IMG/VR virus record: IMGVR_UViG_3300017967_000077
Location: 1 to 37,190 of that record
Direction: 5' to 3' (one strand)
DNA: 37,190 nucleotides
Source: a virus
Shown: piece by piece, positions 5,641-37,156 of the stretch
Numbering within the stretch: the stretch's first letter is position 1
Layout of the letters: each line of letters opens with the position of its first letter
Notes under the pieces: generated by a model
What the model was told of the DNA's origin: nothing
What the model saw: only the letters and a program-made list of their open reading frames with translations
Databases searched by the model: none
Program-made: the position numbers and the translations under genes

Positions 5641-5908
5641 ATCAGAAAAATTTCAGAATGAAGTTCGTTCCTTTAGAGACAGAATTTCCAAAGTTGACGA
5701 TCTAAGATTAAAAACTAATTTAGAAAATCAACTTAGTAAATTAGAATCTATAGTTAAATCTCTTGACTCACAGTTCGAAGAAATGATTTATAGTAAACAG
5801 ATAGGATCTAATAGTAACGATTCTAGAAGCAAGATATCCGACATACGAAAATTTTTAGATTCTAAATTATTAGACTTTGAAAACGGAAAAAAACTTTCTA
5901 TTAAATAG
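5624..5908 (+). CDS. Coiled-coil small protein, unknown
   Basis: This is a 94-residue, almost entirely helical, charged protein. Residues 7-50 contain heptad-like Leu/Ile spacing (LRLKTNLENQLSKLESIVKSL), consistent with a coiled coil. It starts 17 bp inside the Nudix-like gene in another frame, preceded by GGAG at short range, and is the last gene of the plus-strand block. Its last 8 bases overlap the convergent fibre gene. No domain or family is recognised; chaperone or virion accessory roles are possible but not shown. Confidence 0.65.
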   Translation: MLSLYKSEKFQNEVRSFRDRISKVDDLRLKTNLENQLSKLESIVKSLDSQFEEMIYSKQIGSNSNDSRSKISDIRKFLDSKLLDFENGKKLSIK

Positions 5909-7013
5909 AATTGAAATCTTTGATTGTTATACTACCCACCATGGCAGCATGGTTTTGACATTGATATCTATAGCCTCCTGATATAGCAGAAGGTATTCTC
6001 CAATACAAAGTTCCGGAATCTTTTCCTTGTGCAGCAGCACCAGTAGAAACAGTTCCGTCTGTTGCAACGTGAACTAGTCCTGTGTTGTATGCAACTCCCG
6101 CTCCTGTTTGTATTTCAAAAGGATGTCCTGTGGCATTTAATTTAAAAGCCATAGTAGTTCTATTAATTGCATATATTGTAGGATTACCACCAGCATAATG
6201 ACTATTAAACAGATAAGCACTAGTGCCAGAGTTGGTCACTTCCAAGGTAAACATCGCAGGCATGTATATTTCGTCAATTGTTAATCCTGCAGCAACAGCA
6301 TCTGTTAACAAAGAAAACTCAGGAACACCAGAAACCACTGTGCTGGCAATGGTTATTGTGTCTGTTCCGGCATTGGTTGTAATATTCATTCCAGTGCCAG
6401 CAACAATTGTTAGGGTATCAGTAGTAGAATCTGCTACAATATTATCCTGTCCACCAACTGCTATTGTGTTGAAAGAATTTGTAGATCCTCCAGCGGATGC
6501 AGCAATAGTAATTGTGTTTGTTGCATTATCCGTTGTTATGATAACGTTTGATCCTTGTGCAAAGGTTACACTATCTGACAGTTGTGATGCAGTTACATCA
6601 GACTGACCGCTAACACTAAAGGTAGAAAAACTGTTGTTTGTGTTTGTGACAGTTAAAGCACCTTCATCGTTAGTAGTAGTTGATATTCCATCACCTCCCA
6701 AGATAGAAAGTACTTCTCCTGATTGAAGTATTCTCTGTGTCGAGTCGTCCGCAGCGATAGTAATCTCACTACTTCCTCCTGCCCCACCACCAACACCCGC
6801 AGATGATGCTTTTGCTAAAAAATCAGCATTTGAAACATTATCAAGATCGCTTCTAGCAAGTGTGTGCCCGCCGGTAGTATTCCCATCATATAGCCTTAAG
6901 GAATTGGTATCTCTATCAAAGAATATTTCACCACTGGTTCCAGACTTTCTTCCAAGATAGTCCGTTTCTCTGGGTATTAATCTAACTGCGGTTAAAACTG
7001 GAATTTTCGACAT
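5901..7013 (-). CDS. Fibre/virion protein with C-terminal cupredoxin-like domain
   Basis: This is a 370-residue protein. Residues 1-60 carry a tail-fibre-type head (GEIFFDRDTNSLRLYDG). Residues about 70-85 form a Gly-rich linker. Residues about 105-225 contain three degenerate beta repeats of the form GQxD...TDTLTI...ITTxxxTxTI. The C-terminal ~140 residues look like a cupredoxin: GHPFEI with H297, then YRYQCQNHAAMVGSI with C352, H355 and M358. This His ... Cys-x2-His-x2-Met pattern matches the amicyanin-type type 1 copper site. Similar C-terminal domains occur in marine phage structural proteins, so it may be a stable beta-sandwich tip with or without copper. There is no Shine-Dalgarno, and a perfect late box ends 4 nt upstream of the ATG. 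Confidence 0.7.
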   Translation of the reverse strand: MSKIPVLTAVRLIPRETDYLGRKSGTSGEIFFDRDTNSLRLYDGNTTGGHTLARSDLDNVSNADFLAKASSAGVGGGAGGSSEITIAADDSTQRILQSGEVLSILGGDGISTTTNDEGALTVTNTNNSFSTFSVSGQSDVTASQLSDSVTFAQGSNVIITTDNATNTITIAASAGGSTNSFNTIAVGGQDNIVADSTTDTLTIVAGTGMNITTNAGTDTITIASTVVSGVPEFSLLTDAVAAGLTIDEIYMPAMFTLEVTNSGTSAYLFNSHYAGGNPTIYAINRTTMAFKLNATGHPFEIQTGAGVAYNTGLVHVATDGTVSTGAAAQGKDSGTLYWRIPSAISGGYRYQCQNHAAMVGSITIKDFNSI

Positions 7014-7042: not shown

Positions 7043-7294
7043 ATGTTTGACGCGACAAAAGAAATAAACATTAAATTTGAGAACAAATACAACAGCACAT
7101 TTGTTAGAGCTAATCATTGGTTAATTACTGCTAACAAGGAAGACATATATTCTAGCGAAGATCCTGAAAAAGCCTTGGCCGATCTTTGGCAGTCTCATTT
7201 TAATGCTAGGATTATAAAGCAGGACGGAAAGCCCTATAAACTATTGTTTGATAGCCAGGAAGATCTTACCGTGTTTATGCTAAAGTGGGGCTAA
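7043..7294 (+). CDS. Small orphan protein, unknown
   Basis: This is an 83-residue protein beginning MFDATKEINIKFENKYN, with mixed alpha/beta character and three Trp residues, and no signal peptide, membrane segment or recognised motif. It is the only plus-strand gene between two minus-strand genes. Its start is 29 bp from the divergent fibre gene and its last 20 bases overlap the convergent 119-aa gene. The reading frame is clean and the spacing on both sides is compact, which supports a real gene. Function cannot be inferred. Confidence 0.6.
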   Translation: MFDATKEINIKFENKYNSTFVRANHWLITANKEDIYSSEDPEKALADLWQSHFNARIIKQDGKPYKLLFDSQEDLTVFMLKWG

Positions 7295-7634
7295 CTTTCC
7301 AGAGCTTCTTAAGTTCGATTTCCACACCTAATTTTCTAGCTCTGTCATATACTTCGTCAGCAGCATTTTCACCGTAAAAAATTTCGCAGTAATTTTTATC
7401 AAGATATAGGTCGTGTGTGATTATGTACATTTCATACATAGGATTGTGTGCAGCGTAGATTCCGATACTACCAGGAGTGTATGAAATTTGTTCCCATAAA
7501 CTAATATCGTCGATGGAAGGAACTTGCCGATCGTTCCAATCCGTAAACATTGGTCTGTTATTTACTGCTGCTACCTTTACTGCAAGGTCCCAAGGATTGT
7601 TGAATATTTCCTCAGTGTCTTTAAACAGAGACAT
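7275..7634 (-). CDS. Conserved unknown protein, paralogue of the 12504-12890 gene
   Basis: This is a 119-residue protein. Its core IDDISLWEQISYTPGSIGIY and the later CEIFYGENAADEVYDRARKLGVEI correspond segment by segment to IDDVDLWEVIYEDSATFGLY and ETFYGKGALQRVVNRAKSFGVDL in the protein at 12504-12890, so the two are paralogues about 5 kb apart. The family appears in marine T4-like phages without a known role. The ATG at 7634 follows the upstream TAG by one base, implying translational coupling with the 177-aa gene. Its 3' end overlaps the plus-strand 83-aa gene by 20 bp. Confidence 0.7.
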   Translation of the reverse strand: MSLFKDTEEIFNNPWDLAVKVAAVNNRPMFTDWNDRQVPSIDDISLWEQISYTPGSIGIYAAHNPMYEMYIITHDLYLDKNYCEIFYGENAADEVYDRARKLGVEIELKKLWKVSPTLA

Positions 7635-8247: not shown

Positions 8248-8255
8248 TATAAATA
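8248..8255 (+). promoter_or_regulatory. Perfect T4-type late promoter TATAAATA for the oxygenase/halogenase operon
   Basis: TATAAATA is an exact match to the T4 late consensus. It lies 38 nt upstream of the ATG at 8294, followed by an AGGAG ribosome site at 8278-8282. The surrounding TAAATATATGCAT recurs at 170-182. It indicates late expression of the genes 8294-12507. Confidence 0.75.
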
Positions 8256-8293
8256 TATGCATAGTTAATGCGAAGTTAGGAGATTAAGAATAA

Positions 8294-8929
8294 ATGGCTC
8301 AATTCCAGATAGGAGGGTTTTATCCTGGAGAAATAACCCCCGATAGCGTAGTTGGTGGTTGTATCAGCATCTACGAAAAGGCTTGGCCCAACCCATTAGA
8401 AACAATTAAAAATATAGAGGCTGAAGTCGCAAACCCAGATTCAGGTGTTCATTGGACAAAGGCCGAAACTTTTGGAAATGGACCCTTTAGTACACAAAGA
8501 ACAAACATGGTTTTACCTGTTAGCCAACTGGCTACTATGGCTGAAAGCAAGGTTTGTCAGAATATACATAATCAAATGAGAATGAATCTTCTTGCTTCTA
8601 GTGTTCCTTATGCTAGAAGATATGGAATTGAGGAAGAAATGTATCATGAAGATTATCAACTATTAAGATACACTGGTGGACAGGAATACAAAAAACACTA
8701 CGACGGATCAACTGATATCGGAAGGGTTATTTCAGCATTAATATATCTAAACGATGATTACGAAGGCGGAGAACTAGAGTTTCCAAATTACGGAATTACA
8801 ATCAAACCACAGGCAGGAATGATGATACTATTTCCATCAAACTTTGCATATGCACACATTGCACATCCTGTAAGACAAGGCACCAAGTACGGTCTTGTAA
8901 CTTGGATTAGAGATAGAAATAATTTTTAA
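8294..8929 (+). CDS. Fe(II)/2-oxoglutarate oxygenase, prolyl-4-hydroxylase-like
   Basis: This is a 211-residue protein. The double-stranded beta-helix core shows H135-Y-D137 (HYDGSTDIGR), LIYLNDDYEGGELEFP, the second metal His at H188 (AHIAHPV) and a basic residue K198 in GTKYGLVTW that should bind 2-oxoglutarate. This is the P4H/PKHD-type arrangement common in marine T4-like phages. The likely reaction is hydroxylation of a peptide or small-molecule substrate; the substrate is unknown. It is the first gene of a plus-strand operon leading to the halogenase, with an AGGAG site 11 nt upstream of the ATG and a perfect late promoter. All metal ligands are present, so it should be active. Confidence 0.85.
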   Translation: MAQFQIGGFYPGEITPDSVVGGCISIYEKAWPNPLETIKNIEAEVANPDSGVHWTKAETFGNGPFSTQRTNMVLPVSQLATMAESKVCQNIHNQMRMNLLASSVPYARRYGIEEEMYHEDYQLLRYTGGQEYKKHYDGSTDIGRVISALIYLNDDYEGGELEFPNYGITIKPQAGMMILFPSNFAYAHIAHPVRQGTKYGLVTWIRDRNNF

Positions 8930-8931
8930 TA

Positions 8932-9684
8932 ATGTTTAGTTTCTTTTTTAAAAGATCAACGGTTACACTAGATTGCTTTACCAATCTACCATATGTCTAT
9001 GACTTCGCAAAAATAGACAAGGCAGTTAAATTTATTCCCGACTGGTGGAAAAATACTCCTAGAACAATCGAAGGAAAGGAACACGGAACAATTAAAAATT
9101 GTCCTGGATTTATTGATTACTATGCCACGGGTATTGTTATGCCTTCGTGGTTTGAAACTAATATTACAATACATTCGAAAAATGATCCGGAAGAAAGATG
9201 GTATAGTTTTCAGAGTTCAAACAACGATTTTGATGTTTCTAAATCGCATGCACCTTATCAGTTTGAAAACTTTGCAGGATTTGATGGAAAGAATATTAAG
9301 ATCGAAACTCCTTGGGTTCTTAAGACCAAACAGAAAGTAGATTTTTTAGTAACACAACCGACATGGAATCACAGAGATATGCTTACGCATTTTTCTGTAT
9401 TACCGGCCGTTGTAAATTATAAATATCAACACTTTACAAATATTAATATGTTTGTAATCAATAAGGATGAAGAAAGGGTATTAAATATTCCACCGCTAAT
9501 GCCTATGATAATGTTGCATCCTTTGACTGACAAGAAAGTCGAAATAAAAACGCATCTTGTTGACGACAGAGAGTGGAATAGGTTAACGGGTGTGTATAAC
9601 CTAATAATAAGAGATGATGAAGGATACAAGAAGAAAAAAGAAATTTATAAAAAAGTTTCAAAGTGTCCTTTCCATAGGGGGTAA
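8932..9684 (+). CDS. Conserved marine-phage protein of unknown function in oxygenase cluster
   Basis: This is a 250-residue protein beginning MFSFFFKRSTVTLDCFTN, with KFIPDWWKNTPR near residue 40, NCPGFIDYY near 60 and a beta-rich middle (PWVLKTKQKVDFLVTQPTW, then FSVLPAVVNYKYQHFTNINM). It contains no recognised enzyme motif, signal peptide or membrane segment. It starts 2 nt after the oxygenase stop with no clear Shine-Dalgarno, so it is probably translated by coupling. The order of strands resembles the 232-aa protein at 10337, and both sit among oxygenases; a shared fold is possible but unproven. It may be a partner or substrate-handling protein for the neighbouring enzymes. Confidence 0.7.
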   Translation: MFSFFFKRSTVTLDCFTNLPYVYDFAKIDKAVKFIPDWWKNTPRTIEGKEHGTIKNCPGFIDYYATGIVMPSWFETNITIHSKNDPEERWYSFQSSNNDFDVSKSHAPYQFENFAGFDGKNIKIETPWVLKTKQKVDFLVTQPTWNHRDMLTHFSVLPAVVNYKYQHFTNINMFVINKDEERVLNIPPLMPMIMLHPLTDKKVEIKTHLVDDREWNRLTGVYNLIIRDDEGYKKKKEIYKKVSKCPFHRG

Positions 9685-9686
9685 GA

Positions 9687-10322
9687 ATGGAGAATGTAAA
9701 AGAGTTTAAAAACAAAGGATATACTAGAGTTAACGGAGTATTGACAAAAGATATTGTTGATATTGTTACTCAATATGCACTGTTTGACGAATTACAAAAT
9801 TTATCTCCTGAAAAAAATGCAGCAGGTAATAATGCACAGGTTCCTGATGCACATTCTAAATATGCAGATCCTCTAATGGAAACTATTCTTTTACACGTTA
9901 GAACTGCGGTGGAAAAAAATACAGGACTAGAACTATCACCAACTTATTCGTATTTTAGGGTATATAGAAACGGAGATGAACTAATTCCACACAAGGATAG
10001 ACCAGCCTGTGAAATTTCAACAACTATTTGTTTTGGTTATAGTTACGATAATTCCTATAATTGGCCCATTTACATGGAAGGAGAATCAGTTGATTTAAAA
10101 CCTGGAGATATGGTTGCTTATAGAGGATGTGATCTTAAACACTGGAGAGAAAAGTTCATGCCCAAGGAAAAACATTATCATGTGCAAGGATTTTTCCATT
10201 ATGTTGATAAGAACGGACCACATGCTGATTGGAAATTTGATAAGAGAGACAATTTAGGAATTAACAAAAAGATGTTGGATAGAAAATCATACATTATTAG
10301 AACAGAAACAGATTGGTATTAA
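9687..10322 (+). CDS. Fe(II)/2-oxoglutarate oxygenase-type protein
   Basis: This is a 211-residue protein. Residues 88-172 form a recognisable dioxygenase core: YFRVYRNGDELIPHKDRPAC with H102-x-D104, LKPGDMVAYRGCDLKHW with H152 as the distal ligand, and the closing strand HVQGFFHYVD. The usual Arg/Lys that anchors 2-oxoglutarate is not obvious at the expected spacing after H152, so co-substrate binding may differ. A GGGGG-containing Shine-Dalgarno precedes the ATG. It is the third gene of the operon after the P4H-like enzyme and the unknown, and is followed within 15 nt by another unknown. Substrate not predictable. Confidence 0.75.
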   Translation: MENVKEFKNKGYTRVNGVLTKDIVDIVTQYALFDELQNLSPEKNAAGNNAQVPDAHSKYADPLMETILLHVRTAVEKNTGLELSPTYSYFRVYRNGDELIPHKDRPACEISTTICFGYSYDNSYNWPIYMEGESVDLKPGDMVAYRGCDLKHWREKFMPKEKHYHVQGFFHYVDKNGPHADWKFDKRDNLGINKKMLDRKSYIIRTETDWY

Positions 10323-10336
10323 CGAGAGAGAATTTT

Positions 10337-11035
10337 ATGGCAATTACAGTATATTGGGCAAGTTTAGAAAGAGAATGGATGTTAGCAAAAGAACCAGAAT
10401 CTGTTGCTAAATTATTCTATGAAAAAGATATGCACGATACAGATAATCTAAATGCACAATTAAACTATTGTCCATCATTTAATAAGAATCTTAAAAATGT
10501 TTATGCATTAAGATCTATATACGATTATTCATTTAAGATCGATGGGGATAAAGTTTGGTCTCCTGATCGAGATCAAGAGTTTTTTGATATGCATGTAAAT
10601 ATAAGAGATATCAAGAGAAGATTGTTTTCTTTCAAACAGTGTTTTCTATTCTTCACAGAAGAGGATAGCCTACCAGTTACTTTCTATGAGTATCCGTATT
10701 TAGAAGATAATAATATTACAGAACGATGCATGATAGTTGCAGGTCAATTTGATATCGGAAAATGGTTTAGGAATACTGAGTTTGCGTTTTACTTGAAAAA
10801 AGATTATAATGAATTTAAAATCCAACAGGATGAAGTGTTTACGTATCTTAGATTTCATACAGACGAGAAAATTAATTTTAAACAATTTAGACCAACTCAA
10901 CGAATATCAGAATTAATTGCTGATGGATTTGCCTGTAATCAAATATGGCAACCATTAAGAAAATTAGAGAACTACTATAGGATTTTTAAAAACAAAAAAC
11001 TAGCACTAAGAGAAATAAAGGAAAATTTACTATGA
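10337..11035 (+). CDS. Conserved unknown protein next to halogenase
   Basis: This is a 232-residue protein starting MAITVYWASLEREWML. I chose the ATG at 10337 because GAGAGAG lies at normal spacing upstream; a TTG start at 10313 would overlap the previous gene. The middle contains FKQCFLFFTEEDSLPVTFYE and IVAGQFDIGKWFRNTEFAF followed by a DEVFTYLRF strand. No metal-binding or nucleotide-binding motif is seen. Its stop overlaps the halogenase start (ATGA), so the two should be made together, which suggests a functional partnership. The strand order loosely resembles the protein at 8932. Confidence 0.7.
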   Translation: MAITVYWASLEREWMLAKEPESVAKLFYEKDMHDTDNLNAQLNYCPSFNKNLKNVYALRSIYDYSFKIDGDKVWSPDRDQEFFDMHVNIRDIKRRLFSFKQCFLFFTEEDSLPVTFYEYPYLEDNNITERCMIVAGQFDIGKWFRNTEFAFYLKKDYNEFKIQQDEVFTYLRFHTDEKINFKQFRPTQRISELIADGFACNQIWQPLRKLENYYRIFKNKKLALREIKENLL

Positions 11036-12507
11036 AGAGTCCAAAAAGCGTATTAGTTGTAGGAGGAGGAACAGCAGGATTAATTGCTGCAATAATCCTC
11101 AAGAAGGGACTTAGCAATTTAAAAGTAGATGTTGTCCATTCAAAGAACATTGGCATTGTAGGAGTCGGCGAAGGATCTACTGAACACTTTCGCAACTTTA
11201 TGAATTTTGCAGGAATTAATCAACATCAGATTATCAAAGAGTGTGATGCTACATACAAGTCTGGTATTATGTTTACTAATTGGGGTCCTAAAAATTATTT
11301 GCATAGTGTTGGCGAACCTTTCAATAATAAGATGGGTTTGTATCCACACGTATACGCTAGGCAGATTGGAAACAATATCGATTACGTAAATAGTGGTCTT
11401 TTGTGGAATAACAAACTAGAACAATTTTGGCTAAACAATAAAGAAAACCCTCCATTCAATCAATTTCACTTTAACACACATAAACTTAATGATTTCATGA
11501 TCAAGCATGCTAAGAAAACTGGTATTGGAATCTATGAGGATGATATCCAAGATGTTATGTTAAATCAAGATGGAGAAATTGACAAACTAAAAGGTAACAA
11601 TATGGAATACGATTATGATTTCTATATTGACGCCACAGGTTTTAAAAGATTGTTAATGGATAAACTAGGAGGAAAGTGGCAATCCTTTGGTGACGTTTTA
11701 AAAATGAAGGCGGCAATCACATTCCAAACAGAAGACACATCAGAATATAATCTATGGACATTGGCGCATGCAATGGATGCAGGTTGGCTATTTAGAATTC
11801 CTGTCTGGGGTAGGCACGGCAATGGGTACATTTATGATAGCGATTACATTGACAAGGACCAAGCAAAAGCAGAAGTTGAAAAACTTTACGGCAAAGAAAT
11901 TAATATAGGAAAAGAATTTAAGTTTGACCCAGGTCATATTGATCGTGCATGGATTAAGAATTGTGTTGCTATCGGACTTAGCGGAAGTTTTGTTGAGCCG
12001 TTAGAAGCATCATCGATTGGAACTAGCATACAACAAGCATTTATATTGCTTTATAAGATTATCAATTATGATGAAAAGGTTATTGATACCTATAATCATT
12101 CGTTTGTAAAAATTATGGAGAACATAAGAGACTTTCTTGTGTTACATTACATAACACCAAGGCAAGATACTCCCTTTTGGAAAGACTTACAAAATGCTCC
12201 ACTACCCGATAGTCTTGGAAAGAAATTAGAAATTTGGAGGAACAAACTTCCTAATCCAGAAAACTTTAATGATCAAACAGATTATTGCTTGTTTTGGCAC
12301 GATAACTTTACCGTAGTGATGGAAGGTCTTAATTTATTCGATAGAAAAGCAATTTTAAATGAATACATGATGCAGAATCAAGATATCAAGGATGATGCTG
12401 ATCGTGTTATTAAGGAAATTGCTCAGAAAGACGAAACCATGGAAACCATGGGCCATAAAAAGATGATCTCAATAATCAGAGACCATCTTGAATTAAGAGA
12501 CAGTTAA
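11032..12507 (+). CDS. Flavin-dependent halogenase (tryptophan halogenase family)
   Basis: This is a 491-residue protein. The FAD-binding GGGTAG lies at residues 11-16 and GVGEGST at 44-50. K76 in ATYKSGIMFTNW corresponds to the catalytic lysine of PrnA-type halogenases. GNGYIY is at 263-268, and SFVEPLEASSIG at 319-330 carries the second catalytic glutamate region. The family signature WxWxIP is altered to WLFRIP (252-257). Such enzymes use FADH2, O2 and halide to halogenate aromatic substrates. A relative from a cyanophage (VirX1) is known to iodinate diverse substrates. No flavin reductase is encoded in the window, so reduced flavin must come from the host or elsewhere in the phage. It is the last gene of the plus-strand operon and overlaps the convergent gene by 4 bp. 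Confidence 0.88.
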   Translation: MKSPKSVLVVGGGTAGLIAAIILKKGLSNLKVDVVHSKNIGIVGVGEGSTEHFRNFMNFAGINQHQIIKECDATYKSGIMFTNWGPKNYLHSVGEPFNNKMGLYPHVYARQIGNNIDYVNSGLLWNNKLEQFWLNNKENPPFNQFHFNTHKLNDFMIKHAKKTGIGIYEDDIQDVMLNQDGEIDKLKGNNMEYDYDFYIDATGFKRLLMDKLGGKWQSFGDVLKMKAAITFQTEDTSEYNLWTLAHAMDAGWLFRIPVWGRHGNGYIYDSDYIDKDQAKAEVEKLYGKEINIGKEFKFDPGHIDRAWIKNCVAIGLSGSFVEPLEASSIGTSIQQAFILLYKIINYDEKVIDTYNHSFVKIMENIRDFLVLHYITPRQDTPFWKDLQNAPLPDSLGKKLEIWRNKLPNPENFNDQTDYCLFWHDNFTVVMEGLNLFDRKAILNEYMMQNQDIKDDADRVIKEIAQKDETMETMGHKKMISIIRDHLELRDS

Positions 12508-12890
12508 GAATATAACCACATTTTATCGTTATCTACCCAATGCTTGTGCATTGCTAAATCAACACCAAATGATTTGGCTCTATTAACAACTCTTTGTAAT
12601 GCTCCTTTGCCGTAAAATGTTTCTAGTTTAGGTGATTCTCCCTGACGTTCGTTCCATCCGAATCTCATCAAATAAAACTCAGCATACGGAAGCCATGCAG
12701 CGTATAATCCAAATGTTGCACTATCTTCGTAGATAACTTCCCAAAGATCAACATCGTCGATGTTTAATTCTCTGGAATAATCCCAATCCTGTTTTGGTGG
12801 TAATTGTAATTCGTTTGAATCCATCCACTTAGATTCAAAATGTTCTCCGCTGTCTACTACAATATTGTAGGTTGTTTTAAAAAATGGCAT
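12504..12890 (-). CDS. Conserved unknown protein, paralogue of the 7275-7634 gene
   Basis: This is a 128-residue protein starting MPFFKTTYNIVVDSG. I chose the ATG at 12890 because it lies just after the upstream stop; a longer reading from 12938 would run inside the oxygenase gene. The core IDDVDLWEVIYEDSATFGLY and the LETFYGKGALQRVVNRAKSFG segment match the protein at 7275-7634, so the pair is duplicated around the island. Aromatic-rich, acidic, no catalytic motif recognised. It is the third gene of a unit with two oxygenase-type genes. A TTAAATA box lies 5 nt before its ATG and GGAG lies 12 nt before it, so either coupling or an internal leaderless start is possible. Confidence 0.7.
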   Translation of the reverse strand: MPFFKTTYNIVVDSGEHFESKWMDSNELQLPPKQDWDYSRELNIDDVDLWEVIYEDSATFGLYAAWLPYAEFYLMRFGWNERQGESPKLETFYGKGALQRVVNRAKSFGVDLAMHKHWVDNDKMWLYS

Positions 12891-12894
12891 ACTG

Positions 12895-13455
12895 TTATTT
12901 AACTCCTTTTCCGTAGATATCATCGGTATAGATTGCATCTACATTAAATGATATTATTGTCTTTCTATTTACACTTGTATTAGGTAGTGTTTTATGAAGT
13001 ATAAAACTTGGAAATACTACAACGTCACCCTCTTTTACATCTAGTGTTATTTTATTTCCTGTATACGGTTCGATTAGTTGTGTTCTTGGTGAATCGTCTG
13101 GTAATTCAAGATAATAAACATTAGTAAAATTAGCACTATGCGTGTGCCAGCCGTGTTCACTATTTTCTAAATACTGCTGAAACCAAATTTCATTTAGTTT
13201 ATAACTACCAAAGCCTAATTCTCTATACATATCAAGTGCATGTGAAGTTAATGAATTCTTAATATATTTGAACCACGGTCTATCAAAGTTCTGTGAATCA
13301 AACCAATCAGTCTTAGTAATGTTGACTTCAGCAATTTCTACCATAGGAGATTTAAACGGTGCATTGCCTAATAAATCAAGTAGCGTATTTTTTATTTTTT
13401 CGTGTTCAGAAAATTTAGATTTAAGATAAACACATTCTAATTTGTTTTTTATCAT
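12895..13455 (-). CDS. 2OG-Fe(II) oxygenase-like protein (HxH type)
   Basis: This is a 186-residue protein. The core runs IWFQQYLENSEHGWHTHSAN with H104-x-H106, then VYYLELPDD, LDVKEGDVVVFPSFILHKTL with H154, and R164 in NRKTIISFNVD. This matches the 2OG-Fe(II) oxygenase family in which HxH replaces HxD (TIGR02466/PF13759-like), with an Arg for 2-oxoglutarate. The ATG overlaps the stop of the upstream oxygenase gene (ATGA). With the 13452 gene it forms a tandem pair of related enzymes convergent with the halogenase operon. The substrate is unknown; no signal peptide, so cytosolic. Confidence 0.78.
   Translation of the reverse strand: MIKNKLECVYLKSKFSEHEKIKNTLLDLLGNAPFKSPMVEIAEVNITKTDWFDSQNFDRPWFKYIKNSLTSHALDMYRELGFGSYKLNEIWFQQYLENSEHGWHTHSANFTNVYYLELPDDSPRTQLIEPYTGNKITLDVKEGDVVVFPSFILHKTLPNTSVNRKTIISFNVDAIYTDDIYGKGVK
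12896..12902 (-). promoter_or_regulatory. Possible late-type box (TTAAATA), 5 nt from ATG
   Basis: The minus strand reads GTTAAATA-ACAGT-ATG, almost the same as GTTAAATA-ATAGT-ATG at 35967-35973. It overlaps the stop codon of the upstream oxygenase gene. Confidence 0.4.
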
Positions 13456-14102
13456 AGAATAAAATTTCCACTTACACTTATTCTAGTATGATCTGTCCAG
13501 AAAGGTGGAACATAGTGTTTTAATCCTGCAGGAAATATAAGCATTAGATTATCAAAAGGATTGACTTTAAAATAATGATGCATGAACGTGCATATCTTTT
13601 CACCATATTCAAAAACAATACTACCCGCAACTGGTGTATTTGTGTCTGCTTGATTTTCTAAAATTTCTTGCGGAACGCTACAGTATATCACAAATGATAA
13701 AACTCCTTTGTGGTCGTGCGGAGGATTAAAATCGTGTTTCTTATTAAAGTTTACCCAAAGACTTTCTAACTTAATATTTTTGTACTGTTCTACATCCACA
13801 GCACCCTTATACTGCATTCTTATCATATCAAAGAATGTATTAACCTTATCCTTGAGAACAGGTTCCATTTCTGTTTTATACTCGTCGCTGAAGGTATAAC
13901 TTCTTCCATACTTCAAATTACCGGCAAGGTTATGATTAAAATCATCCTTTTCTGATAATTTTTTTGATTCGTCAAGCAAAGATTGGACTATTTCTTGTGT
14001 TAATGTTGTTTGAAATATAGGTGGTCCAAAAGGATATATTACCTTATCGTTTTTGGCATTGGCTGCGTATGCTGAATCTGTGACAAACTGTTTCTGTTCC
14101 AT
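13452..14102 (-). CDS. 2OG-Fe(II) oxygenase family protein (TIGR02466-like)
   Basis: This is a 216-residue protein. Residues 113-140 read LESLWVNFNKKHDFNPPHDH, with H129 and H131 as the HxH metal pair, followed by GVLSFVIYC. Later FDNLMLIFPAGLKHYVPPFW supplies H196, and R207 in HTRISVSGNF should bind 2-oxoglutarate. The pattern (NPPHxH ... FPxxLxHxVxPF ... RxSxSxN) is typical of this family. There is no Shine-Dalgarno: a perfect late box ends 5 nt before the ATG. It is the first gene of a three-gene minus-strand unit (two oxygenases plus the 128-aa paralogue). Target unknown. Confidence 0.8.
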   Translation of the reverse strand: MEQKQFVTDSAYAANAKNDKVIYPFGPPIFQTTLTQEIVQSLLDESKKLSEKDDFNHNLAGNLKYGRSYTFSDEYKTEMEPVLKDKVNTFFDMIRMQYKGAVDVEQYKNIKLESLWVNFNKKHDFNPPHDHKGVLSFVIYCSVPQEILENQADTNTPVAGSIVFEYGEKICTFMHHYFKVNPFDNLMLIFPAGLKHYVPPFWTDHTRISVSGNFIL

Positions 14103-14107
14103 ACAGA

Positions 14108-14114
14108 TATTTAT
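14108..14114 (-). promoter_or_regulatory. Late promoter box (ATAAATA), 5 nt from ATG
   Basis: The minus strand reads CAATAAATA-TCTGT-ATG. Exact box, no ribosome binding site downstream of the expected start point, so a leaderless transcript is predicted for the oxygenase unit 14102-12504. Confidence 0.75.
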
Positions 14115-14145: not shown

Positions 14146-15171
14146 TTACAACAAGTATCTTACAACAACGATTCCTGGACCACCAGCAGCACCGTACGAG
14201 TTACCACCTGGATGTGAGTTACCGTGGCTTGGGTTTTCAGCACCACCACCGCCACCACCGCCGGTATTGGTTCCACCCTGACCACCGTTTCCGTTGGTTC
14301 TGTGATCTCCACCTGCGCCTGCGTTGAGTGCGGATCCACCGCCGTTGTTCTGTCCTGCTGGGCCGCCACCGCCACCGCCACCGCCACCTAGGCCGCCAAA
14401 GCCTCCGTGTGGTTGTGGAGCATTGCCTGGATGCCAGCCGCCGCCTGCACCGCCTGCCCAATAATAGTTTGTTCCTGTGATTGAACTCTGTCTTCCGTTA
14501 CCGCCGTAGCCACCACCTGATGGTCCTGAGTTTTGGCCGCCGCCTCCAGCGCCGCCTCCACCTGCACCATGTGGACCCGATGATCCGCCATGTCCGCCAT
14601 AACCTGTACCGGATAAAGGTTGGCCGCCTTGGTTGTTACCACCACCACCACCTAGGTGTGATGCACCACCGCCCGATCCACCTGGGTGTCCTGGACGATA
14701 GTTTCTGTGGTTACCACCACGTCCGCCACCGTTTGCAGTGATTGTTGAAATTGTTGGCCCTGAGAAAGTAGTATTTCCGCCCGTTGTGTTACCGGAAACG
14801 TCATCAGTTCCTGACTGTGCGCCACCGCCACCTCGGCCAATTGTAAAGTCTCCTGCTGGTAGTGCTGCTCCGCCGGTAACGACCATGCCGCCTCCGCCGC
14901 CTCCGCCGCCGTGGCGTCCGCCACCTGCTCCGCCACCACCGATGAATATTCCTTCAATGGTTAGTGCGCCTTTGACTAACCCTAGCATTCCTTGTAGTGC
15001 AGGATCTTTTGCCTTTACGCTAAATGTTCCGTCATCTGTAAACATGTGGATTCTGTATCCACCTGCTGTGTATACTTGATTACCGCCAGTAATCTCAAAT
15101 TTGTCAAGGATACTCTCGCCATCTTTTTTTGGCGTGTCATAGTTTCCTCTAATACTACTAATAAATGGCAT
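14146..15171 (-). CDS. Glycine-rich tail-fibre tip/adhesin-like protein
   Basis: This is a 341-residue protein. Residues 1-85 are a mixed domain with GGYRIHMFTDDGTFSV. From about residue 78 to the end it is dominated by Gly runs interspersed with Asn, His and Ser, ending GAAGGPGIVVVRYLL. This resembles glycine-rich domains of phage receptor-binding adhesins such as T-even gp38, where Gly motifs form a polyglycine-II sandwich. It is at the end of the fibre gene array, a usual place for a tip or receptor-binding protein. A good AGGAG site precedes the ATG and a late box lies about 20 nt upstream. The composition is DNA-biased (CCGCCACC repeats on the plus strand). Role in receptor binding is inferred. 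Confidence 0.7.
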   Translation of the reverse strand: MPFISSIRGNYDTPKKDGESILDKFEITGGNQVYTAGGYRIHMFTDDGTFSVKAKDPALQGMLGLVKGALTIEGIFIGGGGAGGGRHGGGGGGGGMVVTGGAALPAGDFTIGRGGGGAQSGTDDVSGNTTGGNTTFSGPTISTITANGGGRGGNHRNYRPGHPGGSGGGASHLGGGGGNNQGGQPLSGTGYGGHGGSSGPHGAGGGGAGGGGQNSGPSGGGYGGNGRQSSITGTNYYWAGGAGGGWHPGNAPQPHGGFGGLGGGGGGGGGPAGQNNGGGSALNAGAGGDHRTNGNGGQGGTNTGGGGGGGAENPSHGNSHPGGNSYGAAGGPGIVVVRYLL

Positions 15172-36055: not shown

Positions 36056-37156
36056 TTACGCAAAACGTAGGTTCGCTGATGTAACAGCAACTTTACCTAA
36101 GTAGTCTGCCGCATTACCAAGAGATGATGCAGTGTTTGTTAACTCTACATAACCGTATCTTGTCATGAACGAAACTACTGGTTCAAATGTTGCTGGATCA
36201 AGAACCACACCGCTTGACATTAATGGAATGTATGGGCAGTAGAACGCTGCTGCGTCTGATTCTGATGAACCTTTGTAACCAATGATTACATCGTCTGATG
36301 TAGCATAACCGTTTACATACACTTTCATCGCACTGTTTAAAGTTCCCACAAACTTAGTGTTTGTTGGTGCTTCAAAAGTACCTTCAGTTGTTCTTGCGAA
36401 CGCAGAAGTTGTTGCAGATTGTAACAGAGTTAATACTGTTGGTGAAACAACAGCCCAGTTACCTGCACCACGACGTGTACGCTGTGCAATCAAGTTAGCA
36501 ACACGGTTGATTTGAACTGCTAATGCAGCATGTTCATCACCAACGAATGTAGCAGTACCTGACACTGCGCCTTGGTCGTATGTTAAAGCGGCTGTACCAG
36601 CCAATGTGCTTAAAGAACCAATTACTTCTTGATCGATCTCAGCAGTAATCTCTTGTGCAAGAGCTGCCATGATCTCAGCCTCGATGTCAATGCCCTGTTG
36701 AGCTTGTGCATCTTGAGCTGCTTCAAAAGTCCAACGAGCTGACAATTTACGTGTCTTCGCTTCGACTGTTTGTTTCAAGATTTGAATTGATAATCTGTTT
36801 CCAGCAGTACCTTCAAGTGCAGCAGTTGAACCAGGCTTAGTACCAGTAGCGGTATCATTTCCTGAATAACCTTCTGCGATCTTGAATGGTGATAATGCTT
36901 CTTCACCTGCTGTTACTGTAGTACCAGCACTTGGTGCAAAAGCGTCAGCATAACGCACACGCAATGTGTGAATTTGGCCAACTGGTCCAGTCATTGGTTG
37001 AACACCAACAAGTTCGTTTGCGATAACTGTTGGCATTACACGTCTGATTACTGGAAGAATGACGCGGTTTAGTGTTGCGACGTTGCCGGCAGAAGTGGCG
37101 CCTGCTGTAGCACTCTCTGACAAATACTTACGGGTATTTTCCAGAGTCGTTGCCAT
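36056..37156 (-). CDS. 23: Major capsid protein gp23
   Basis: This is a T4-like major capsid protein. From the ATG at 37156 it is 366 residues: MATTLENTRKYLSES, then VIRRVMPTVIANELVGVQPMTGPVGQIHTLR, the conserved MCP segment near residue 35-65 (given here as consecutive short motifs: RRVMPTVIANELVGV and QPMTGPVGQIHTLRVRY), then KLSARWTFEAAQD, IMAALAQEITAEIDQE, RTRRGAGNWAVVSP, YCPYIPLMSSGVV and SFMTRYGYV. T4 gp23 is 521 residues; this short form fits the marine relatives. There is no strong ribosome site, and the frame stays open upstream to the window edge (LEGLQGNKRTV before the Met), so the true start could be earlier. It is closed by a strong terminator, as expected for the most expressed late gene. 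Confidence 0.88.
   Translation of the reverse strand: MATTLENTRKYLSESATAGATSAGNVATLNRVILPVIRRVMPTVIANELVGVQPMTGPVGQIHTLRVRYADAFAPSAGTTVTAGEEALSPFKIAEGYSGNDTATGTKPGSTAALEGTAGNRLSIQILKQTVEAKTRKLSARWTFEAAQDAQAQQGIDIEAEIMAALAQEITAEIDQEVIGSLSTLAGTAALTYDQGAVSGTATFVGDEHAALAVQINRVANLIAQRTRRGAGNWAVVSPTVLTLLQSATTSAFARTTEGTFEAPTNTKFVGTLNSAMKVYVNGYATSDDVIIGYKGSSESDAAAFYCPYIPLMSSGVVLDPATFEPVVSFMTRYGYVELTNTASSLGNAADYLGKVAVTSANLRFA

Follow-up and report, generated by a model that had tools for sequence, protein, structure and literature searches.

A recurring halogenase and 2-oxoglutarate oxygenase island with predicted dUTPase-fold partners in a T4-superfamily phage

The window analysed here is the whole 37,190-base virus record IMGVR_UViG_3300017967_000077, which covers only 37 kb of the phage genome. 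Between positions 8294 and 14102 it carries an island that encodes a flavin-dependent halogenase (FDH), four proteins of the Fe(II)/2-oxoglutarate (2OG) oxygenase type and two proteins, U1 and U2, with a predicted dUTPase fold. Comparison with other viral sequences shows that the island is a real conserved module, recurring in many environmental phages. The open reading frame (ORF) calls give eight genes in 8294–14102, rather than the nine of a first-pass annotation whose enzyme content and coordinates otherwise hold, in two convergent operons that meet at 12504–12507. The plus operon has five genes, which by start are a prolyl 4-hydroxylase-like (P4H-like) oxygenase (8294), U1 (8932), the oxygenase-type protein OxB (9687), U2 (10337) and FDH (11032). 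The minus operon has three, Ox5b (14102), Ox5a (13455) and S144 (12938).

A profile made from five phage FDHs was used to collect 80 environmental viral contigs, out of at least 579 confirmed matches, and near-duplicates were removed before 60 non-redundant FDH-bearing environmental phage loci were compared. The co-occurrence in other phages that had been suggested as a check on the island is indeed found: P4H is present in 45/60 of these loci, Ox5b in 40/60, Ox5a in 31/60, OxB in 25/60, U2 in 21/60 and U1 in 17/60, against 0/73 for each of these six in loci centred on the capsid gene of this phage type. The capsid control samples a different genome region; the stronger evidence is the distance decay, island-gene density dropping with distance from FDH, together with the reciprocal searches. 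Loci selected by U2 contain U1 in 22/53 and FDH in 13/53, and those selected by OxB contain P4H in 59/71 and FDH in 10/71. FDH and OxB are fused into one protein in three contigs, L011 (713 aa), L013 (680 aa) and L169 (657 aa), and the two therefore appear to act together. The FDH part is 59% identical to the window FDH in L011 and 33% in L013. OxB and P4H are likewise fused into one protein (L194/L195, L224, L231). The orders P4H-U1-OxB-FDH and P4H-OxB-U2-FDH recur with starts and stops overlapping, and such repeated layouts with overlapping genes are seen in L009, L011, L013, L018, L019, L029, L092 and L168. The conserved operon and its fusions indicate which enzymes work together and add a previously unassigned dUTPase-fold family as a partner; the fused FDH-hydroxylase proteins could be expressed for substrate finding.

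In FDH chemistry hypohalous acid reaches the substrate via a catalytic Lys with a Glu. The window FDH (11032–12507, plus strand) matches PF04820 with E=4e-95 and, as the first-pass annotation had it, keeps the flavin motif GGGTAG, K76 and EPLEASS. Conservation of catalytic residues was judged across 115 to 186 relatives per family; K76 is Lys in 185/186 FDH relatives and E325, of EPLEASS, is Glu in 184/186. The canonical WxWxIP reads WLFRIP, with Phe at the place of the second Trp also in 93/186 relatives, and variants of this motif are known among halogenases (PMC8407142). The C-terminal Trp4 motif (YYHG...YS or EFxNFW), defined for free-tryptophan halogenases (PMC8269204), is absent from the window FDH and from all relatives scanned, and assignment as a free-tryptophan halogenase was rejected on this ground. 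Without Trp4, and resembling group C enzymes (PMC8269204), the window FDH would be expected to act on an aromatic substrate that is large or unusual rather than on free tryptophan. VirX1, the characterised viral FDH (PMC8407142) from cyanophage Syn10 (PDB 6QGM), belongs to the same fold family and also has no Trp4 motif (PMC8269204). The best Syn10 match of the window FDH covers 78% of the query at only 28% identity; we found no report that VirX1 is part of an operon. Viral halogenases are known, and one has been used in biocatalysis, but no natural substrate was found named in the literature. An FDH ORF of 380 aa or more is present in 117 loci, of which 37 carry two to five such ORFs. We note that L035, L036, L039, L052, L028 and L025 each pack five halogenase genes into roughly 20 kb.

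Hydroxylases of the families found here use Fe(II), 2OG and O2. Metal ligands are complete in all four window proteins, two HxD (P4H-like and OxB) and two HxH (Ox5a and Ox5b), in agreement with the first reading. Three of the four exceed the Pfam cut-off. The P4H-like protein (8294–8929, plus strand) matches PF13640 with E=1e-17 and has HYD, H188 and K198. Its PDB relatives include the prolyl 4-hydroxylase 3itq (E=5e-8), and protein-modifying prolyl hydroxylases top the list of matches. It shares the HxD...H...K 2OG domain with the bacterial prolyl 4-hydroxylases (3itq, 5hv0), from which it differs in its phage context and in that only the C-terminal 90 residues match. Many FDH-neighbouring copies of the P4H family have HxE, whereas the window copy has HxD. 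Ox5a (12895–13455, minus strand; HxH...H; PF13759, E=8e-10) and Ox5b (13452–14102, minus strand; HxH...H...R; PF13759, E=4e-12) are 2OG-FeII_Oxy_5 proteins. The first and distal His are present in all members of both families and the second His in 146/148 and 140/140, respectively. OxB (9687–10322, plus strand) has no Pfam match and is assigned by PHROG (phrog_2954) and HxD...H...R only; HKD, H152 and R154 are invariant in 115/115. With catalytic residues nearly invariant across relatives, the enzymes look intact, as had been proposed.

Several labels attached to these families do not fit. The OxB relatives are named ferrochelatase in many phage records, in GenBank and in PHROGs 2954/3531, despite the invariant HxD...H...R; a ferrochelatase is unsupported and the label is probably a misannotation. 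Against the PDB, the OxB profile gave only weak thymidylate synthase matches (E 0.02–0.1), which were treated as chance. The conserved HxD...H...R likewise gives no support to the label ‘DNA endonuclease V’ carried by 2OG proteins in PHROG 274, 2297 and S-H38. A further 2OG-like family, DUF6445/phrog_1644 (L054:4289-5008 and relatives), labelled ‘minor coat protein’, lies near FDH in 26 groups and may represent either a further oxygenase or a virion component.

U1 (8932–9684, plus strand; phrog_7084) and U2 (10337–11035, plus strand; phrog_17480) had been set down as two conserved unknowns. Neither has a Pfam family, but they are not independent of each other: the two are homologous (hhalign E=8.5e-7), and L165:14147-14908 and similar sequences match both profiles. 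AlphaFold2 models were built from alignments of 19 (U1) and 20 (U2) sequences, with mean predicted local distance difference test scores (pLDDT) of 82.6 and 78.9. The best structural matches of both models, obtained independently, are dUTPases, with Z 10.1 for U1 and Z 9.8 (Foldseek E=3e-4) for U2; a Z of about 10 exceeds the 7–8 expected for unmatched models, though it is not far above. The best PDB matches of the U1 profile are also dUTPases, over motifs 3–4, with an E of only 0.016. We thus predict that U1 and U2 form one homologous family with the beta-clip fold of the trimeric dUTPases. They are about 100 residues longer than those enzymes and do not have the C-terminal motif 5; U1 ends CPFHRG. 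Diverged U1 members retain a motif 3/4-like stretch, GIIDSD...IPAGTPMFQIIPIKRE, whereas the window U1 reads AVVNYKYQH with the Asp replaced, which makes dUTPase activity unlikely for this protein. By eye, U2 has neither the motif-3 Asp nor motif 5. A search for U2 in 85,000 bacterial and archaeal species genomes gave a single match, in a contig of a metagenome-assembled genome, so there is no bacterial pathway to serve as a guide.

Each operon is preceded by an exact late-type box, as the first-pass annotation had reported. TATAAATA lies at 8248–8255 on the plus strand, 38 nt before the first ATG, and ATAAATA at 14108–14114 on the minus strand. The number of box copies in the window, that of TATAAATA included, is not above chance; only placement is informative. 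For ATAAATA, 8/11 copies lie no more than 50 nt upstream of an ORF start, compared with 0–22% for 20 permutations of the same composition. The ranking of words upstream of FDH operons elsewhere lends modest support. Among 42 independent loci, the stretch before the first operon gene contains ATAAATA in 12 cases, more than any other of 21 words (the runner-up has 8), and TATAAATA in 7, ahead of all others in a set of 56 (runner-up 6). Late expression of the island is likely, as judged from these promoter-like words only.

Gene content, intact catalytic residues, clustering, fusions and the fold prediction are the observed basis for an explanation of the island. We tentatively suggest a late tailoring pathway that acts on a common substrate, most likely a tail-fibre or adhesin protein of the virion that is encoded alongside. 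FDH would halogenate the substrate using O2, halide and FADH2, the last of which must come from a host reductase, with hypohalous acid passing through Lys76 with Glu325. The P4H-like, OxB and Ox5 hydroxylases would, we infer, act in turn on the same substrate, and U1 and U2, no longer ordinary dUTPases, would probably be binding partners of the substrate or of the enzymes. In a fibre or adhesin protein, halogenation would fall on aromatic residues and hydroxylation on Pro and others, and the adhesion or stability of the particle would change as a result. Virion proteins are suggested as the target because the island adjoins fibre genes and has late-type boxes, and a protein substrate for the P4H-like enzyme because its nearest relatives, the prolyl 4-hydroxylases, act on proteins. 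A fibre-type gene is present in the examined flank of 37/56 FDH groups. In the window, Ox5b comes directly after a glycine-rich (37% Gly) fibre-type gene on the same strand (14146–15171, minus strand; phrog_2295, E=1e-36). The product of this gene is a possible substrate; its five Pro-Gly in 341 aa, a small number, are the densest of the window proteins compared.

Several points weigh against this assignment. Accessory genes gather near fibre genes in T4-like phages anyway, so that location is weak evidence. The test of late-box placement considers position alone, and the ATAAATA box before Ox5b is just 5 nt from the ATG; if it is used, the transcript of the minus operon would be nearly leaderless. 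No flavin reductase was identified in the window. Carbamoyltransferase genes lie near FDH in 22/56 groups and HAD phosphatase genes in 19/56, and a glycosyltransferase-like protein is found in many related islands; such genes suit a glycan or small molecule better. In its most specific form the proposal is that phages use a dedicated late operon to add halogen and hydroxyl groups to their own tail fibres or adhesins after translation, with dUTPase-fold proteins that have lost their catalytic role offering the substrate to a complex of halogenase and hydroxylases; as a whole this seems to us unlikely. A literature search for phage fibre hydroxylation, with all terms combined, found nothing. Should virion proteins prove to be the target, the island would represent a novel form of phage particle modification.

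The carbamoyltransferase and phosphatase genes of the relatives make it quite possible that the island instead makes or decorates a small molecule or surface glycan, such as a halogenated amino-acid or sugar metabolite or a capsule decoration. Iyer and colleagues proposed a biosynthetic role of this kind for jumbo cyanophages, on the basis of a 10-gene cluster in S-SSM6a with a halogenase, several 2OG oxygenases, carbamoyltransferases and HAD phosphatases (Iyer et al. 2021, PMC7824862). The S-SSM6a-type core of carbamoyltransferase with HAD phosphatase and methylase is not found among the ORFs of the 37-kb window, and neither these ORFs nor their PHROG matches include a carbamoyltransferase, glycosyltransferase, peptide synthetase or exporter. 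We slightly prefer the virion fibre protein as the substrate over a metabolite or glycan and keep the two nearly level. It is improbable that the genes are unlinked and have simply gathered in a hypervariable region beside the fibre genes, where they do separate jobs such as 2OG turnover. 2OG oxygenases are indeed common and scattered in T4-like cyanophages, for which a 2OG/NtcA role has been proposed (PMC3037559), and gene order is shuffled among the relatives of the island; however, the FDH-OxB and OxB-P4H fusions, the steep distance decay, the empty capsid control and the recurrent overlapping operons all speak for a linked function. A pathway in which dUTPase-fold proteins handle nucleotides and the oxygenases and FDH modify bases would fit the predicted fold of U1 and U2 and a weak Tet_JBP match of the P4H-like protein (E=0.026, below cut-off), but is very improbable given the loss of the motif-3 Asp in U1, the missing motif 5 and the late, structural placement and boxes of the island.

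The suggestion that the island may be a new tailoring system was too strong, as clusters of a halogenase with multiple 2OG oxygenases are already published for jumbo cyanophages (PMC7824862). Reports of prnA, and of multiple 2OG oxygenases, in T4-like cyanophages go back to 2010 (PMC3037559, PMC2984593), and a halogenase is present in 20/153 cyanophage genomes (PMC10452541). The S-SSM6a cluster resembles the island in that a phage FDH adjoins several 2OG oxygenases, and some relatives of the window island add a carbamoyltransferase and HAD phosphatase. It differs in that the window FDH is only 26.5% identical to the S-SSM6a FDH and the window adds OxB, U1, U2 and S144. Pelagibacter phage HTVC008M and Prochlorococcus phage P-SSM2 also have FDH and 2OG oxygenases near tail or neck genes, as in the window, and HTVC008M shares OxB; in HTVC008M, however, most oxygenases and FDH lie outside one operon, and no U1 or U2 was found in the stretches examined of either phage. 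Judged by the literature consulted, three things are new: a conserved P4H-U1-OxB-U2-FDH module in phages other than typical cyanophages, the gene fusions, and the assignment of U1 and U2 to the dUTPase fold.

To the left of the island are genes for a neck protein, a tail-sheath-type protein and a baseplate/fibre connector; to the right are fibre genes (109 to 2566 aa) and, at 36056–37156, the major capsid protein. The closest relatives of the capsid protein come from Sinorhizobium phage Phosso (469 kb; 75% identity), GAP32 (69%) and PA5oct (68.5%), and jumbo phages of the same kind rank first for the neck protein. The phage, described at first simply as T4-like, thus does belong by sequence to the T4 superfamily, is not a typical cyanophage and is closest to jumbo phages, of which the window is probably a fragment.

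The last gene of the minus operon, S144 (12504–12938, minus strand), had been listed as a 128-aa paralogue; the full ORF is 144 aa, with 128 aa from an internal ATG at 12890. It is a paralogue of the protein encoded at 7275–7634 (para119, minus strand), with 33% identity over 88 aa (E=1e-14), and has no relatives in isolate phages. Genes of the S144 family thus flank the island on both sides, and in L013 and L019 they also overlap the FDH stop convergently, which suggests that they delimit the cassette or help in fibre assembly. We also note that the fibre-connector proteins of the window (5901–7013; no Pfam match) and of L060 (13452–14930) end with YQCxxHxxMxGxI, by eye like a copper-binding cupredoxin motif.

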